A stretch of 21,611 nt of DNA from a virus: positions 1-21,611 of the IMG/VR virus record IMGVR_UViG_3300024346_000594, one strand, 5' to 3'. Both the position numbers and the translations under genes were made by a program. The notes beneath the pieces are model-generated. The model was given only the letters and a program-made list of their open reading frames with translations, ran no database searches and was not told the origin of the DNA. This document shows, piece after piece, positions 5,084 through 17,893 of the stretch. The number at the start of each line of letters is the position of its first letter. Position 1 is the stretch's first letter.

Positions 5084-7009
5084 GTGGCAATTATTAAAAC
5101 AATTAAAAATGCTTATTGGCTTACGGCTATACTATATGAGGATCCGATTCCTGGGGCTACAAATATGTTTATACAACATGATGCCTACGATAAAACAACT
5201 TTAGCCTATCAGTTTGATGTAGCAATGAATTGGAATACTCGAGGTACTTATAGTTCTATGGCTTCAGAGGACGGTGCTAATCATAGTGGGTTTGGTGTTT
5301 CTGCTACTATGGTTAACTATAATTCTGCAACGTTAGCTTCTGTTCCATCTTATGGTGCTCAACAAGCTGCTATTAATATTTTAACCGGTGTATTACAACT
5401 TAATGGTGAAACTACTCATGTAAGGCATCAGGTAGTTAACGTAACGGCCGGTGACTATAGACAAAATTTAGACGTTGCACCATTTGCATCAATGGATTCA
5501 ACTAGAAGACCTAAGCCTACTAATTACTTTACTGATGGTACTAATAACATAGTAATGGGAGTATACCATCATAATGGAACTGCAGGTGGCCAAGCGTCCT
5601 ATATTCCTAGATATTGGCTAAAAATTAATACAAGCTCTCAGGATTTAGTAAACAGTAATTTTGTAAATGCTAATACATTTCTACCTCTTACATTGGGCGG
5701 TGTAACTGGCGGCTATCAAGTCTGGCCATTATACAGAAATCCTGCTACTAATAATATAGTATGGGGTGGTCAGACTGGTATATTAAATGTTATACCATAC
5801 TCAATGCGCGGACTTATTCAGGGACCTGCATTTAGCTCTGCGCCAACATTTATCTCTCCTGTAACTTCTTTTATAGCAAGTTACAGTAGCCAATTTGTTG
5901 GAGTAAGCTCCGCAGACGGCTTTGCTATATTCTTAGAAAATTCAGCATTAAATGACTATACACAGAATTTCTATAAACTTGTAGATACAGTAACACAAAC
6001 GGTAACTAATACAGTATTAACAGCCGTATCAGCTGTCCCAGTCGCGGCAGGTAGTAGTGCTGGCGGAGTACCATCTGGTAGAGGGTTAAGCTTTGGGGGT
6101 AACTTACCTAAGTATGCTAGTAGTACGTTTGCCGAAACAGGGTCAGTCTCAGGGTTCTACCTACCCTTTTTAGATAATAACGGTACTTACCAACCGTTTT
6201 ACTATCAGTGGAATCGTAGTACTGATGCATTTACAAGAAATAGTAACGTAACCGTAACATATGCTACCGGAACTTTTGCTTCCTACTTTGGTGTAGATAC
6301 TCAGAGTCAGACTGCTACTGGTAATGCATTTGGTATGAATAGGTTCCTGTGGAATGAAACATTTACCTATAGTGGTACTAGATATCTAATGTTTGGACAA
6401 CTAAATGGTGCTGGTGGTACATATGACAGTACGCCTACACAGAGAACTTTTGTTTGCTATAGTGTTAATGCCGGAGACCCTAAACTGCTAACCTATCACA
6501 GCTCACTAGTTGTTCCACTTACACCTAAAAATATTGTCTGGTTAAATGATGCACGTACAACCGTTGGTATTATTACACATACTAACTTCTACATCTATGC
6601 ATTCAATGGTACAACTTGGACACAAACAGTTAACCTGCCCTATCAAATGAGTGCAGTAGGTAGGGATAATACTGGACGTATCTGGGCAACAGACGTAGGT
6701 CCACTAGGTCAAGGTAGATTGCACCTAATTTCTCCTACTACTCCAGTAAGTATTACAGTAACACCAGCAAGCACAAACTACTCGTATGCAGGAAGCACAA
6801 TCACATCAAGTGTTGCAGTAAATGCATACGATAGTACAGGCACCAGAATAGCAGTAGCTGTTAAACTAGTTATTAGTGGTGCGTCCATGACATTTGCTAG
6901 CAGTAACCTAACCACTACTATAACAACTAGCGCAAGTGCTGATACAACAGTACCTATTTATATAACAAATGGTGGTGTAAGCAATATTATTGCTAGTGCT
7001 GCTATTTAA
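5084..7009 (+). CDS. large putative tail or virion surface protein, paralogue B
   Basis: 641 residues, starting at GTG 5084 with AAAGGA at 5071-5076; the GTG gives MAII, matching the paralogue at 3030 and so supporting this start. It shares the full domain order of paralogue A: N-terminal EDPIPGATNM and DKTTLAYQFD, the NDYTQNFYK block, ATGTFASYF, QRTFVCYSV, PKNIVWLNDARTTVGI, VGRDNTGRIWATD, and a final Ig-like segment of about 90 residues. It is longer mainly through insertions in the first third (for example around SYGAQQAAINILTGVLQLNG). Likely a virion surface or receptor-contact protein; the pair probably arose by tandem duplication. Confidence 0.7.
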   Translation: MAIIKTIKNAYWLTAILYEDPIPGATNMFIQHDAYDKTTLAYQFDVAMNWNTRGTYSSMASEDGANHSGFGVSATMVNYNSATLASVPSYGAQQAAINILTGVLQLNGETTHVRHQVVNVTAGDYRQNLDVAPFASMDSTRRPKPTNYFTDGTNNIVMGVYHHNGTAGGQASYIPRYWLKINTSSQDLVNSNFVNANTFLPLTLGGVTGGYQVWPLYRNPATNNIVWGGQTGILNVIPYSMRGLIQGPAFSSAPTFISPVTSFIASYSSQFVGVSSADGFAIFLENSALNDYTQNFYKLVDTVTQTVTNTVLTAVSAVPVAAGSSAGGVPSGRGLSFGGNLPKYASSTFAETGSVSGFYLPFLDNNGTYQPFYYQWNRSTDAFTRNSNVTVTYATGTFASYFGVDTQSQTATGNAFGMNRFLWNETFTYSGTRYLMFGQLNGAGGTYDSTPTQRTFVCYSVNAGDPKLLTYHSSLVVPLTPKNIVWLNDARTTVGIITHTNFYIYAFNGTTWTQTVNLPYQMSAVGRDNTGRIWATDVGPLGQGRLHLISPTTPVSITVTPASTNYSYAGSTITSSVAVNAYDSTGTRIAVAVKLVISGASMTFASSNLTTTITTSASADTTVPIYITNGGVSNIIASAAI

Positions 7010-9931: not shown

Positions 9932-12136
9932 ATGTCGTATCAATTAAGTAGACTTGATTTAGTTGTTAGTAATGCTACTACTCAGATTACAGTAAACACT
10001 AATCCGTCTACACAAAGTTATATTAATGGTGATATAGTTCCCCAAGATAATGTAATTGCTGTAAACAGTACACACAATAGATTCGCTACTCCTGATGACC
10101 TTGCTGTAGCCTTAATTAAATCAACTTCTACGGCTGCAAGCTTAATTAATGTAACAGCAAAAGCACTAAATACTACTGAAGTACCTATATCTCCTACATA
10201 TTTTAGTAACTTAAATAATACTTTAAAAATAAATTACGACGGTGAGTACTATGTAAAACTACTACTATTAAATAATAATAGTAGTACTATAGTAGACGGT
10301 AGCAATAATAATTATACTATAGTAAATACCAGTGACTCCGTATGGCCTGGAGTCAGCGGAATGGGTGGTAGCACTGGTGGCCCCTTTGGCACTGGTGCTA
10401 GTGGGTTTTTTAACGCCCTAGAAAGCGACTTCTTACGTATTAACAACCCTATATCTAGCCTACTAGGTGCAGAGGATTTTACCGTAGAATTTTTTATACG
10501 GGGGTCAACAGACTGGTCAACCGCACCTGTAATAATTGATACTGGTTCTAACCTAGGATTTCAATATTGGCAAGTATCTATTACTGCTACTGGTCAGGTA
10601 CAGTTTACATACATTAATGGACCAGGTAATGCTACAAATGTAGTAACTACTAGTACAATGGCCATAACTGTTTGGTACCACGTTGCCATAGTTAGAAATA
10701 ATACTGTACAAACACCTGGTAATAACTTTAATATATATATTAATGGTATATCTGGAGTTTCTGCCCTAATTGCAAATAACTGGGGCGATACTGGTACTAG
10801 TGCTAATACTATACTTATAGGTAAGAGCGCAAATAATACACGATATCTTCCTGCTAACCTATCTAATCTAAGAATAACACAGTCTGCAGTTTATACAGGT
10901 AATTTTACTCCGCCTATCTCTAACCTTCAGGTATCACAGGCAGCTTCAGCATATGTAGCAGCAATACCTGCAGGTAGAAAATTAAATACAAAGTACAGTA
11001 CTACTCTTAGTAAGTCAGCTGTTTATAATCCTACACAATTACCTTTATATAATAATTTAGCGTATACTAGTCCAACAGGTCAAACAGAGGTATATGATAA
11101 CAGTTTAATCATTAATAGTTACGTAAACTCTACTGCTAATAAAAATGTCATATCTTCTCAAGCTACTATAAACATAGCTAGTAGACCAGACTTCTATATT
11201 ACTGGCTCGGATGCTCCTAATATATCAGGGTATTCTTTAGGTGCCTCTGTCTTAGTTACTAATACTGGTGGAGCTTTTTTTAATGGCGCGGCGCAGTATT
11301 TGTTAATAACCGGAACTACATCGGGACCACTGGATCTAGCCGCAGGAGCAGGTAACTGGACCGTTGAATGTTGGTTCAATCCTGGCTCAGTTACTGGTCA
11401 GCAGTCTATATTTTGGAAAGGTGGTACCAGCGGTAGTGTAAATCCATCATATGCATTTTTCCTTAGCGGCACCGGCGGCCAGTTTATTGTTGGCGATGGC
11501 GGCGGTGGTGGTGCAGTTGTTAATGTTCCAGGCAGCACTTTTGCTATTAATACTTGGTATCATTTCGCATTAGTACGTAATGGAACTACTTTTACAGCGT
11601 GGATAAACGGCGTAGCATATTCAACTACTCTTGTCTTTACCATGAGCAATACCAGTAACAACAAATTAACCATAGGTAGTAGTACTGCTGACAACTCTAC
11701 TAGATATTTTAATGGTCAAATTAGTAATTTTCGTATAGTAAAAGGTGTAGCAGTATATACAGGTAACTTCACTCTACCTAATATTAGTTCTTTAACTGCT
11801 ACTCAGTCTGCTGGTACTAATATTAGTGCTATCTCAGGCACACAAACTAGTTTACTAACACTGCAAAACTCTACCTTACTAGATAATTCAACGTACTCTA
11901 ATGCTATTACTAATAATCTTGCTGGAGTTCAATCTTTACCCTATACTCCTCCACTACTATCTACTACTAGTTTATTTTATATAGGGGGAGCAGGCCAAAC
12001 TGTGTCAACCCCAAGCACTCCTGCATATATTATAAATACTACTAAGTACAATGACCCTACGCAAGTAGAGGGCTACTTTAGTAGCTTTATACCGCAGCAT
12101 ACTGGTGAAGAAGATAGAATACAAGCGTGGGTGTAA
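9932..12136 (+). CDS. two-LamG-domain tail adhesin
   Basis: 734 residues; AAGGAAA a dozen bases before ATG 9932. It has the same plan as the preceding gene with one LamG domain fewer: a common N-terminus (MSYxLSxLDLVVxN to LNTTEVPIS), LamG 1 at about residues 159-327, the TSPTGQTEVYD spacer, LamG 2 at about 447-615, and a C-terminal tail ending in IQAWV (compare LQSWS). LamG 2 has all the signature pieces: FFNGAAQYL, WTVECWF, NTWYHFALVRNG, ISNFRIVKGVAVYTGNF. Probably a second host-recognition protein that shares the docking N-terminus with its neighbour. It is the last gene of the tail block, followed by the hairpin region. Confidence 0.85.
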   Translation: MSYQLSRLDLVVSNATTQITVNTNPSTQSYINGDIVPQDNVIAVNSTHNRFATPDDLAVALIKSTSTAASLINVTAKALNTTEVPISPTYFSNLNNTLKINYDGEYYVKLLLLNNNSSTIVDGSNNNYTIVNTSDSVWPGVSGMGGSTGGPFGTGASGFFNALESDFLRINNPISSLLGAEDFTVEFFIRGSTDWSTAPVIIDTGSNLGFQYWQVSITATGQVQFTYINGPGNATNVVTTSTMAITVWYHVAIVRNNTVQTPGNNFNIYINGISGVSALIANNWGDTGTSANTILIGKSANNTRYLPANLSNLRITQSAVYTGNFTPPISNLQVSQAASAYVAAIPAGRKLNTKYSTTLSKSAVYNPTQLPLYNNLAYTSPTGQTEVYDNSLIINSYVNSTANKNVISSQATINIASRPDFYITGSDAPNISGYSLGASVLVTNTGGAFFNGAAQYLLITGTTSGPLDLAAGAGNWTVECWFNPGSVTGQQSIFWKGGTSGSVNPSYAFFLSGTGGQFIVGDGGGGGAVVNVPGSTFAINTWYHFALVRNGTTFTAWINGVAYSTTLVFTMSNTSNNKLTIGSSTADNSTRYFNGQISNFRIVKGVAVYTGNFTLPNISSLTATQSAGTNISAISGTQTSLLTLQNSTLLDNSTYSNAITNNLAGVQSLPYTPPLLSTTSLFYIGGAGQTVSTPSTPAYIINTTKYNDPTQVEGYFSSFIPQHTGEEDRIQAWV
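10040..10191 (+). repeat. 152-bp near-identical block, copy 2
   Basis: Partner of 7121-7272. The reading frame is conserved and it encodes the shared N-terminal docking segment of the two-LamG protein. Confidence 0.95.
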
Positions 12137-12175
12137 AACTATAATATACTACCATAGCATACACTTTTTAAAATC

Positions 12176-12249
12176 GCAATTTTTTAACAAATTGCTCTAC
12201 TAACTCTGAGTTAGTAGGATACTTAACTATGATAAGTATCCTACTAACT
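12176..12249. promoter_or_regulatory. tandem hairpins with two competing structures
   Basis: Three stem-loops lie between the tail and lysis blocks. The first is GCAATTT 12176-12182 with AAATTGC 12189-12195. Hairpin A pairs CTACTAACT 12197-12205 with AGTTAGTAG 12209-12217, loop CTG. Hairpin B is a perfect 17-bp stem, 12209-12225 with 12233-12249, loop ACTATGA. A and B use the same strand 12209-12217, so they exclude each other. A T5 run at 12257-12261 follows hairpin B by seven bases, which is too far for a textbook intrinsic terminator. Possible roles are attenuation, an RNase III processing site, mRNA stabilisation or control of the genes at 12295 onward. A TATAAT at 12140-12145 upstream has no convincing -35 partner. 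Confidence 0.7.
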
Positions 12250-12294
12250 TATAAACTTTTTATGGAAATAAAAAATGCAAATATTGGAGATACG

Positions 12295-12444
12295 ATGACA
12301 GACCAATTTACTACGTTACTGGCCCAAATCAGAGATTTAAATGAAAGTGTTATATCTATTAAAGATAAAGTAGTTTTAGATAGACAAGCAGCCGAGTTAG
12401 TAAGACAGGGTAGACCTGAAGAACCTAAGGAAGAAACAGAATGA
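12295..12444 (+). CDS. small coiled-coil hypothetical protein
   Basis: 49 residues beginning MTDQFTTLLAQIRDLNESVI. The start at 12295 is preferred over in-frame ATGs at 12229 and 12262 because GGAG at about 12284-12287 is well placed and because 12229 lies in the loop of a long hairpin. Heptad-like hydrophobics (F5, L8-L9, I12, L15, V19-I20, I22, V26) suggest a helix able to dimerise, followed by a charged tail ending PEEPKEETE. Its TGA overlaps the next ATG (ATGA), so translation is probably coupled. Function unknown. Confidence 0.6.
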   Translation: MTDQFTTLLAQIRDLNESVISIKDKVVLDRQAAELVRQGRPEEPKEETE

Positions 12445-12764
12445 GAGATATCCAAAAAGAATTAAGCGATCTTCAAGATATTATAAGTCTTGCTCAAGAA
12501 TCCCTAACTAAAGCCAGTAAATTAAAAACTGGTGACAGCGTTAGTTGGAATAGTAGTGGAGGTACTGCTCGCGGTAAGATTACTAAAATTATTACTTCAG
12601 GTTCAGAAAACGTTCCTGGTAGTAGTTTTAAAATTACAGGTACAGAGGATGACCCCGGTGCTCTTATTAGATTGTATCGAGAACAAGAGGGTAAGTATAA
12701 ACCAACTGATACTATTGTAGGTCACAAGGTAAAAACTTTAACAAAAATTCCATCACTAACATAA
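12441..12764 (+). CDS. Hva1/DUF2945 Tudor-like domain protein with N-terminal coiled coil
   Basis: 107 residues, ATG overlapping the previous TGA. Residues 1-26 (MRDIQKELSDLQDIISLAQE and on) form an amphipathic helix nearly repeated at the start of the next gene. Residues about 29-103 match the hypervirulence-associated Tudor-like fold (DUF2945): GDSVSWNSSGGTARGKITKI, then a short strand region, SFKITGTEDDPGALIRLY, and a closing KPTDTIVGHKVKTLTKI, equivalent to the family's H-K-P-x-x-L-x-x-I ending. The family is a small SH3/Tudor-like barrel of unsettled function. The N-terminal helix is an addition to the usual single-domain form. Family assignment is from memory of the motif order. Confidence 0.75.
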   Translation: MRDIQKELSDLQDIISLAQESLTKASKLKTGDSVSWNSSGGTARGKITKIITSGSENVPGSSFKITGTEDDPGALIRLYREQEGKYKPTDTIVGHKVKTLTKIPSLT

Positions 12765-12775
12765 TAGGAAATAAG

Positions 12776-13408
12776 ATGAGAGATATCCTAAAAGAATTAG
12801 ATGAATTACAAGATTTAGTAGATTTTGCACAAAATGGTCTAGTAAAAGAAACTAGAACCTATACTCCTACAGAGGGTATGGCATCCGCTGCTCGTCGTGC
12901 CCTAAAGTGGCGTGAAGAGGGACGTGCTGGCGGAACCTCAGTTGGGTTAGCTCGTGCCAATCAGTTAAAAAATAGAGAAAACTTAACTGAGCGAACAGTC
13001 TTACGTATGCACTCCTTTTTTAGTCGTCATGCTGTAGATAAGCAGGCAACCGGATTTTCAAGCGGAGAAGAGGGTTTTCCTAGTAAGGGTCGTGTAGCTT
13101 GGGATCTATGGGGTGGAGATGGGGGTGCAAGCTGGTCAGAGCAAAAACGTAATCAAATAATGAGAGATCGTCAAAGCAAAACATTTAAGCCTAGCATTAA
13201 GGGCTATATGTTAGAACATGAAGAGCATGCTCAAACTATTGAAGACTATGCTAACCAAAACATTAGCGAAGAGTTAGAAGCATTTGGACAATTTATGTAC
13301 CATGCTCAGCTACTAAGGAATGGTCATTTAGATATGTACTTAATGGACTTATACATGGTTGCTCAACCCTATCGCGATATACTAGTTGATATATTCGCAG
13401 AAGACTAA
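12776..13408 (+). CDS. conserved phage protein, shared N-terminal helix
   Basis: 210 residues; AGGAAA is directly upstream of ATG 12776. The first 24 residues (MRDILKELDELQDLVDFAQN) copy the N-terminus of the preceding protein, including near-identical DNA. Residues about 34-125 hold a motif familiar from many uncharacterised phage proteins: MASAARRALKWREEG, GGTSVGLARANQL, TVLRMHSFFSRHAVDK and GRVAWDLWGGDGGASW. It is positively charged in the first half and may touch nucleic acid or a structural partner. The C-terminal 60 residues are acidic and helical. It ends 10 bases before the endolysin start. The biochemical role is not known to me. Confidence 0.7.
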   Translation: MRDILKELDELQDLVDFAQNGLVKETRTYTPTEGMASAARRALKWREEGRAGGTSVGLARANQLKNRENLTERTVLRMHSFFSRHAVDKQATGFSSGEEGFPSKGRVAWDLWGGDGGASWSEQKRNQIMRDRQSKTFKPSIKGYMLEHEEHAQTIEDYANQNISEELEAFGQFMYHAQLLRNGHLDMYLMDLYMVAQPYRDILVDIFAED

Positions 13409-13418
13409 GGATAAAATA

Positions 13419-14033
13419 ATGCAGATAACTAGAGATCAATTAAATAGTGTTATACCAGGTAACCAGCACCTAGACAAATGGCTAGAATGTCTTAATACTA
13501 TTCTTCCAGAATATGAGATTGACTCGCCTGAGCGCGTAGCCGCATTTTTAGCTCAATGCGCTCATGAGTCTGGTGGATTTAAGGCGATTAAAGAAAACTT
13601 AAACTATAAGGCTGCTAGCCTTAGAAAAGTTTTTCCTAAATATTTTCCCACAGATGAACTAGCAGAACAATATGCACATAATCAAGAAGCTATTGCTAAT
13701 CGCGTGTATGGTAATCGTATGGGGAATGGCGATGAGCATTCTGGTGATGGCTATTCTTACTGCGGTAGAGGTCTTATTCAGCTAACTGGTCATGATAACT
13801 ATAAAGCTTTTGCTGATAGTTTATCTAGTAGCATGGAGGAGATCGTAGAATTTCTTCAAACATTTGAGGGTTGCGTACAGAGTGCTTGCTGGTTCTGGGA
13901 AACCAATGACTTAAACACTCTAGCTGACTCAGGCGATATTAAGGCAATGACTAAACGTATTAATGGTGGTTACATTGGACTAGAGGATCGTATTAAACAC
14001 TATGAGCATGCCCTGCATGTTTTAGGGGCATAA
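13419..14033 (+). CDS. endolysin, GH19 chitinase-like family
   Basis: 204 residues from ATG 13419, chosen because TAAGG at 13406-13410 is correctly spaced; an upstream in-frame ATG at 13386 lies inside the previous gene and adds residues not typical of the family. The GH19 lysozyme-like core is clear: AQCAHESGGF with the putative general acid Glu50, ENLNYKAASLRKVFPKYF, AIANRVYGNRMGNGDE with a second conserved acidic site near Glu106, SGDGYSYCGRGLIQLTG, and a C-terminal KRINGGYIGLEDR. Such enzymes cut the glycan strands of peptidoglycan at the end of infection. It has no signal peptide, so it needs a holin to reach the wall. It heads the lysis region. Confidence 0.92.
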   Translation: MQITRDQLNSVIPGNQHLDKWLECLNTILPEYEIDSPERVAAFLAQCAHESGGFKAIKENLNYKAASLRKVFPKYFPTDELAEQYAHNQEAIANRVYGNRMGNGDEHSGDGYSYCGRGLIQLTGHDNYKAFADSLSSSMEEIVEFLQTFEGCVQSACWFWETNDLNTLADSGDIKAMTKRINGGYIGLEDRIKHYEHALHVLGA

Positions 14034-17186: not shown

Positions 17187-17858
17187 ATGGCTACTGGTAA
17201 AAAGATTCGAAGAAATGAAGGCGAAAGTTATACTGCTTCTTTTAAAGAAGTACAACCCTTAAACTTTATACAAGGAGAATATCTAGATGCTATACGGCAT
17301 AATGATATTATATTTGGAGTAGGTAGTGCGGGAACAGGAAAAACTTACGTAGCAGCTAGTTATGCTGCTTCAGAATTATTTCATCGTAGAGTAGATAAGA
17401 TAATACTAACAAGACCAAATGTTGAAACAGGTAGAGGTTTAGGCTTCTTACCTGGGACTTTGGAGGAGAAGTATGCACCTTATCTAGATCCTTTTGATAG
17501 TGTATTTGCTAGAGCTTTAGGTAAAGGATTTTATGAGTACGCGTTAAAAACTAAGACTATTGAACCAAGACCACTTGGTTTTATGAGAGGGGCGACATTT
17601 GATAATGCTATTGTATTAGTAGATGAGGCTCAGAATGCCACCGTTACTGAGATGAAAATGATTTTATCCAGAATCGGTAAAAATACTAAAATGATTTTTT
17701 CAGGAGACTCTGAACAAAGTGACATTGAAAATTCAGGATTAGATGATGCAGTGGACCGACTTGAGGGTATTCCTGGTATTGAAATAATTAGATTTTTAGA
17801 TGAGGATATAGTACGAAGTAAATTGTGTAAACAAATCATAATGGCTTATAGAAATTAA
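17187..17858 (+). CDS. phoH: PhoH-like P-loop ATPase
   Basis: 223 residues from ATG 17187 with TGGAGA just upstream; an earlier in-frame ATG overlaps the preceding gene and is rejected. PhoH features: Walker A GSAGTGKT at residues 46-53, TRPNVETGRGLGFLPGTLEEKYAPYLDP at about 75-102, Walker B IVLVDE at 142-147 followed by AQNAT, and a sensor-like SGDSEQSD near 173. PhoH is widespread in phages, especially marine ones, as an ATP-binding and proposed RNA-handling protein; its link to phosphate starvation in phage is not demonstrated. Last gene of the plus-strand block, closed by the terminator four bases downstream of its stop. Confidence 0.93.
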   Translation: MATGKKIRRNEGESYTASFKEVQPLNFIQGEYLDAIRHNDIIFGVGSAGTGKTYVAASYAASELFHRRVDKIILTRPNVETGRGLGFLPGTLEEKYAPYLDPFDSVFARALGKGFYEYALKTKTIEPRPLGFMRGATFDNAIVLVDEAQNATVTEMKMILSRIGKNTKMIFSGDSEQSDIENSGLDDAVDRLEGIPGIEIIRFLDEDIVRSKLCKQIIMAYRN

Positions 17859-17893
17859 AAAAGCCCCTAAATCGCAAGATTTAGGGGCTTTTT
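17857..17893. terminator. bidirectional intrinsic terminator between convergent genes
   Basis: An 11-bp perfect stem, GCCCCTAAATC (17863-17873) with GATTTAGGGGC (17878-17888), is capped by a GCAA tetraloop. It is flanked by A6 on the left (17857-17862) and T5 on the right (17889-17893), so it has a U tract in both directions. It ends PhoH transcription on the plus strand and the ribonucleotide reductase operon on the minus strand. Confidence 0.95.

Follow-up and report, generated by a model that had tools for sequence, protein, structure and literature searches.

A hairpin array between the tail genes and the lysis cassette of an uncultured tailed phage is probably a leaky intrinsic terminator

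Among described systems, intrinsic (Rho-independent) terminators between phage operons resemble the hairpin array reported here in combining a stem-loop and U-tract between gene modules with compensatory changes, and clear GC-rich terminators stand at the other boundaries of this late operon; unlike them, the array stacks two or three hairpins, often AT-rich, has no promoter downstream and, in the copy that was our starting point, has a displaced U-tract. In phage T7, T-phi, downstream of gene 10, is a partial terminator that sets gene dose within the late operon by acting on the phage RNA polymerase. The array would likewise cut downstream expression by incomplete termination, whereas the strong sigma-70 sites here point to the host polymerase. 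Attenuators are built of mutually exclusive hairpins, and here too an upstream strand is able to pair with the 5' arm of the terminator-like stem; however, this alternative pairing is not conserved past the nearest relatives, and neither a leader peptide nor a ligand domain was recognised. PeSLs, the promoter/stem-loop mobile cassettes of T4-type phages, share with the array a conserved intergenic stem-loop between exchanged genes, but the array has one copy per record and no recognisable promoter, and its relatives are not T4-like. Template switching between inverted repeats is marked by loop inversion and arm homogenisation (PMC8604942, PMC8794818); both are seen at this locus, although the process accounts for sequence change and not for the hairpin's role. 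The array itself is without an Rfam match, while its kind is well known.

The array was found in a 21.6-kb virus record, analysed whole and called the window below, in which LamG tail proteins lie upstream of a leader and a lysis cassette downstream of it (Table 1), so that its placement between tail and lysis genes in the preliminary description holds. Past the leader, the gene order is a 49-aa protein, an Hva1_TUDOR protein, a conserved gene of unknown function, the GH19 endolysin, spanin-like and holin-like genes and phoH, followed by a bidirectional terminator facing nucleotide genes of opposite orientation. The leader had been assigned to the 12295 gene, which a seven-codon open reading frame in fact precedes. 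By tblastn, the product of the 12295 gene is homologous (69% over 39 aa) to a stretch past the first leader gene of relative L366, and no relative of the 12776 protein was found in bacterial and archaeal genomes. Whereas the window encodes the Hva1_TUDOR domain in a small gene of its own, L003 (250-984) and L004 carry it as a fusion with the MEIDCP-type gene.

Table 1. Features of the leader and its surroundings, in window coordinates.
Feature	Position	Strand	Basis
LamG-domain tail protein gene; stop codon abuts leader	9932..12136	+	Pfam Laminin_G_3; PHROG tail/baseplate families
Hairpin I region, degraded in window	12137..12171	+	alignment and pair counts
Hairpin II, short, AT-rich (GCAATTTTTTAACAAATTGC)	12176..12195	+	fold, -5.4 kcal/mol
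Third arm copy (CTACTAACT), could pair with 12209-12217, antiterminator-like strand; lineage-restricted	12197..12205	+	
Hairpin III (reported stem): 17 perfect bp, 19 with closing G-U and U-A; 7-nt loop ACUAUGA	12207..12251	+	
U-tract position, TATAAACTTTTT	12250..12261	+	alignments, stem-plus-tail listing
Seven-codon ORF MQILEIR*, overlaps ATG of 12295 gene (ATGA)	12275..12298	+	comparison with L366, L025, L151
First gene after leader, 49 aa	12295..12444	+	tblastn
Small protein with Hva1_TUDOR domain	12441..12764	+	Pfam PF11160, E 1.2e-8
Lysis-cassette conserved gene, unknown function	12776..13408	+	PHROG phrog_2859
GH19 endolysin, next after 12776 gene	13386-14033		PHROG phrog_181 endolysin
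Perfect 16-bp bidirectional terminator, end of lysis/phoH block; comparison case	17858..17893	.	inverted repeat, terminator scan

All coordinates in the preliminary description were reproduced, including those of the arm AGTTAGTAG at 12209-12217 and of its upstream copy. The perfect 17-bp stem joins 12209-12225 to 12233-12249 across a 7-nt loop and extends by two further pairs. A stem of this length had been called very unlikely by chance, and 60 dinucleotide shuffles of the window indeed yielded no perfect stem (loop of 3-12 nt) longer than 12 bp. The region 12140-12300 folds at -38.1 kcal/mol, compared to -16.2 +/- 3.0 kcal/mol in shuffles (z -7.2), with none of 200 shuffles as low. The hairpin said to lie just before the stem is present (hairpin II), as is the T5 run said to follow it, at 12257-12261, but the latter begins 5-7 nt past the stem.

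An exact 17-mer search returned one relative, L025 (the same contig as L141), whose intergenic block is 88% identical to that of the window despite different flanking genes; eight further exact matches in other contigs were without the second arm and without shared context and thus look like chance. Similar blocks were found in L003/L145, L004/L148, L149 and L151; a covariance model of six sequences picked up L024 and L026 at the same place, and a second model added L365/L366, L371 (E 0.0006) and, marginally, L428 (E 0.017). The array was thus recovered in 11 distinct viral contigs of uncultured tailed phages, with one leader each. All 11 leaders have a tail-type gene on one side and the lysis cassette or its preceding gene on the other, while the gene right after the leader varies (MEIDCP-type gene, 12295 gene, 12776 homologue or GH19). 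When five larger relative records were searched for copies, four gave one credible place each and the fifth gave no such place. Among the loci searched that carry more remote relatives of the MEIDCP-type gene (L153 onward), the hairpin model produced no convincing hit, pattern scans with the downstream block returned, among the matches listed, known members only, the rest being mostly chance, and the phage genome collection yielded weak endolysin matches only. A search of the window against Rfam gave no match.

Covariation among relatives, one of the checks proposed at the outset, was quantified in an 11-sequence alignment of hairpin III, in which 87.9% of cells are paired and 8 of 12 pairs have changed on both sides. 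Cells with both-side changes numbered 24, versus 9.0 +/- 2.2 in shuffles, and neither this count nor the covariation score was reached by any of 500 shuffles; when the register was slid, at most 47% of cells were paired. The exchanges include GGAT/ATCC in the window and L025, GGGT/AUCC, a G-U intermediate, in L366, GGGT/ACCC in L151, CAGGGATTGCTA/TAGCAATCCCTG in L024 and TGACGGACA/TGTCCGTCA in L371. Altogether, the comparison indicates that the hairpin array is real and under selection.

The reported stem is part of a larger element (about 12137-12294), ordered as hairpin I, the small hairpin II, hairpin III, UUUAUAAA and the start of the next gene. Hairpin I is terminator-like in relatives, e.g., AAAAAAAGTTCTTGGTACAAGTATACCAAGAACTTTTTT in L149, and its helix is 86.6% paired across eight sequences, with three pairs changed on both sides; in the window it is broken by C-C, A-C and three inner mismatches, and its 5' arm is cut into by the stop codon of the tail gene and the junction with a different tail gene. 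As read by eye from the alignment, a small hairpin occupies the position of hairpin II in most relatives, rebuilt from different bases. Past hairpin III, nearly every one of the 11 members retains the motif ATAAA, some 15-30 nt ahead of the start codon.

The 3' flank of hairpin III gives most relatives the anatomy of an intrinsic terminator, with a U-tract (UUUUAUAAA or (A)CUUUUUAUAAA) directly 3' of the stem. It is clearest in L024, L026, L371 and L428, in which a strong stem is followed immediately by AGUUUUUAU, ACUUUUAU, CUUUUUAU and UUUUUAU, respectively, placing 4-5 U directly after it. L025, L151 and L366 have UUUUAU after CCUACUA, where the window has AACUUAU: here, the first Us have been replaced by AC within the longer stem, and a second T5 comes after. 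The window stem is followed by UUAUAAAC, with 3 U in 8 the poorest U-tract of the set, and a U5 run from 5-7 nt on. The stem is GC-rich in L024, L026 and L371 and AT-rich in the window, L145, L148 and L149, in the last three of which hairpin III is weak (-6 to -7 kcal/mol). The transcript punctuation proposed in the preliminary description is thus supported by compensatory changes in 11 contigs at the boundary and classical terminator anatomy in several of them, and we regard hairpin III as probably an intrinsic, and likely partial (leaky), terminator that separates tail genes from the lysis cassette. Speaking against a terminator are the poor U-tract and AT-rich stem of the window, the weak hairpin III of L145, L148 and L149, and a conservation of ATAAA that exceeds a terminator's needs.

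The leaky character is suggested by the distribution of promoters. Two relatives with near-complete records, G001 (128 kb) and G012 (124 kb), have between them six further late-operon boundaries that carry a GC-rich terminator and TTGAC(A/T)-N17-TATAAT, with p <= 0.005 against shuffles at each of these terminator-promoter sites, and such strong sigma-70 sites point to the host polymerase. This repeated boundary module, whose near-perfect sigma-70 promoter has a spacing of exactly 17 nt, occurs at 35967, 43762 and 68946 of G001 (L238-L244) and at 5218, 107302 and 114523 of G012 (L444-L450, reversed). At the array, by comparison, every leader scored at shuffle level for a sigma-70 promoter; even in L148, in which a TATAAT lies upstream of hairpin I, the best site scores as shuffles do. 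The forward strand of the window has no sigma-70 site of at least 11/12, and neither does the forward strand of G012 between 5280 and 55363, the positions of the nearest strong forward promoter upstream of its leader and of the next one, far past the lysis genes. A sigma-70-like promoter is therefore absent from leader and cassette alike, and the lysis genes are most simply supplied by read-through from the tail operon. Because a terminator stands here without a sigma-70 promoter, unlike at the other boundaries, a leaky terminator appears to be the best explanation, and in L024, L026 and L371, where a strong GC-rich stem is joined by no visible promoter, termination would have to be incomplete or overcome. 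On this reading of the sequences, RNA polymerase that had started at distant upstream promoters of the late operon would be partly released at the array, and the lysis genes would be expressed by read-through at a lower level; termination, its efficiency and a purpose of lowering lysis gene dose are what we infer.

The same boundary could be read as a regulatory switch, since the strand at 12197-12205 is present as described and forms a 9-bp hairpin with 12209-12217. Such an attenuator-like arrangement, in which this pairing competes with the terminator stem and the choice of fold regulates lysis expression, seems unlikely, as the relatives do not preserve the alternative pairing. It is complete (9/9) only in the window and L025, its closest relative, reaches 8/9 in L151 and, by eye, in L366, and falls to 4-5/9 in L145, L148 and L149; against shuffled flanks, only the window (p = 0.008) and L025 (p = 0.016) show a significant upstream-strand match, the other six of eight sequences tested being at chance, so the two competing folds of the preliminary description are not well supported. 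Pooled covariation for the alternative pairing lies slightly above shuffles, which reached it in 7/500 and 3/500 cases, but this signal is weak, being confounded by relatedness and reachable by related sequences without structure, and the constancy of the arm in the closest group leaves no coordinated change there. Folding energies of both conformers, another proposed check, are -25.7 kcal/mol for the long stem and -9.8 kcal/mol for the 9-bp hairpin, a deficit of about 16 kcal/mol; in the growing RNA, the small hairpin would nevertheless form first, to be displaced once the 3' arm is complete near 12249. Neither an Rfam match nor a leader peptide speaks for a switch, with no open reading frame of at least 50 aa found before hairpin III. 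A kinetic version, in which the early-formed hairpin at 12197-12217 holds back the terminator stem and, together with a phage or host factor, times the lysis genes in a small clade, we consider quite unlikely. The long stem might instead act after transcription, as an RNase III site or 3'-end protector splitting tail and lysis mRNAs. A 19-pair stem with flanking hairpins, and the retention of several hairpins in relatives even though hairpins I and II were rebuilt, would suit such a processing or stability element, to which we nonetheless give little credence: the 17-19 bp form is almost confined to the window phage, the stems of most relatives having 9-15 pairs and in part being interrupted by internal loops (as are the 9-10 bp stems of L145, L148 and L149), and the relatives retain a stem plus U-tract, which marks a terminator and not a double-strand cutter. 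The RNase III site suggested earlier is therefore not favoured, a duplex of about 20 bp not being conserved.

It is very unlikely that the near-invariant TTTATAAA 3' of hairpin III serves the lysis genes as a phage-specific late promoter, insulated by the hairpin. The retention of ATAAA in almost all 11 members and a cassette otherwise without a promoter would fit, but there is no -35 element, the leaders resemble shuffles for sigma-70 sites, and TATAAA is absent after the other late-operon terminators inspected. The relatives are also not T4-like as judged by gp23, a family without a match in G001 or in the fragments G002 and G003, and TATAAATA is not enriched upstream of G001 genes (1 versus 0.8 expected); G012 carries a phrog_12 portal and a protease/major-head protein. 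A T4-like late promoter or PeSL cassette was thus rejected on gp23, TATAAATA counts and leader sigma-70 scores, while the near-invariance of ATAAA after the stem makes some other type of promoter conceivable. In four other phage contigs (L192, L194, L224 and L228), a terminator is followed directly by TATAAATACTTTTTAGGAAAA before the start codon, which resembles a T4-type late promoter. That the palindrome has no function at all, having arisen by chance or through template switching in replication, is highly improbable. Compared to the window, L025 and L366 have the loop in inverted orientation, and the 3' arm of the window matches its 5' arm unlike in relatives, as such an origin would predict; template switching makes perfect arms, however, but leaves retention at this boundary unexplained, and the hairpin persists at the same place where little stem sequence is shared, with two-sided changes at most of its pairs and the U-tract mostly retained.

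The loop of hairpin III (12226-12232) reads ACTATGA in the window, is nearly the same in L151 and is the reverse complement, TCATAGT, within L025:4376-4540 and L366:2872-3029; a 38-nt piece of the window is the exact opposite strand of L025. Two changes in the window brought the 3' arm into full agreement with the 5' arm, which lengthened the stem and removed the first U-run. The longer stem of the window and the flipped loop of two relatives look like the products of template switching during replication. Separately, G012 (L448:2593-4401) has a gene for the SbcC-like subunit of a palindrome-specific endonuclease (phrog_77), which may be of interest beside long palindromes. Downstream of the array, a gene beginning MHNEDCPIEAQYKEV... 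follows the leader in L366, L025 and L151 and is missing from the window (12262-12300); its homologue in L025 has no Pfam or PHROG match, and the seven-codon open reading frame of the window is probably its remnant. As a terminator, the window copy would thus be an altered one, in which hairpin I was broken and hairpin III gained pairs and lost its first U-tract. Since the longer hairpin came at the cost of that tract, the window may terminate weakly or at the second U-run; its perfect stem is probably a derived state of a terminator, and possibly a less efficient one.

If the array is indeed a leaky terminator, these phages would keep the lysis genes below the tail genes by a terminator with no promoter after it, a simple control of lysis dose. 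The locus is also a clean natural case of reshaping by template switching, through loop inversion and arm correction, in which the role of the hairpin was seemingly kept.
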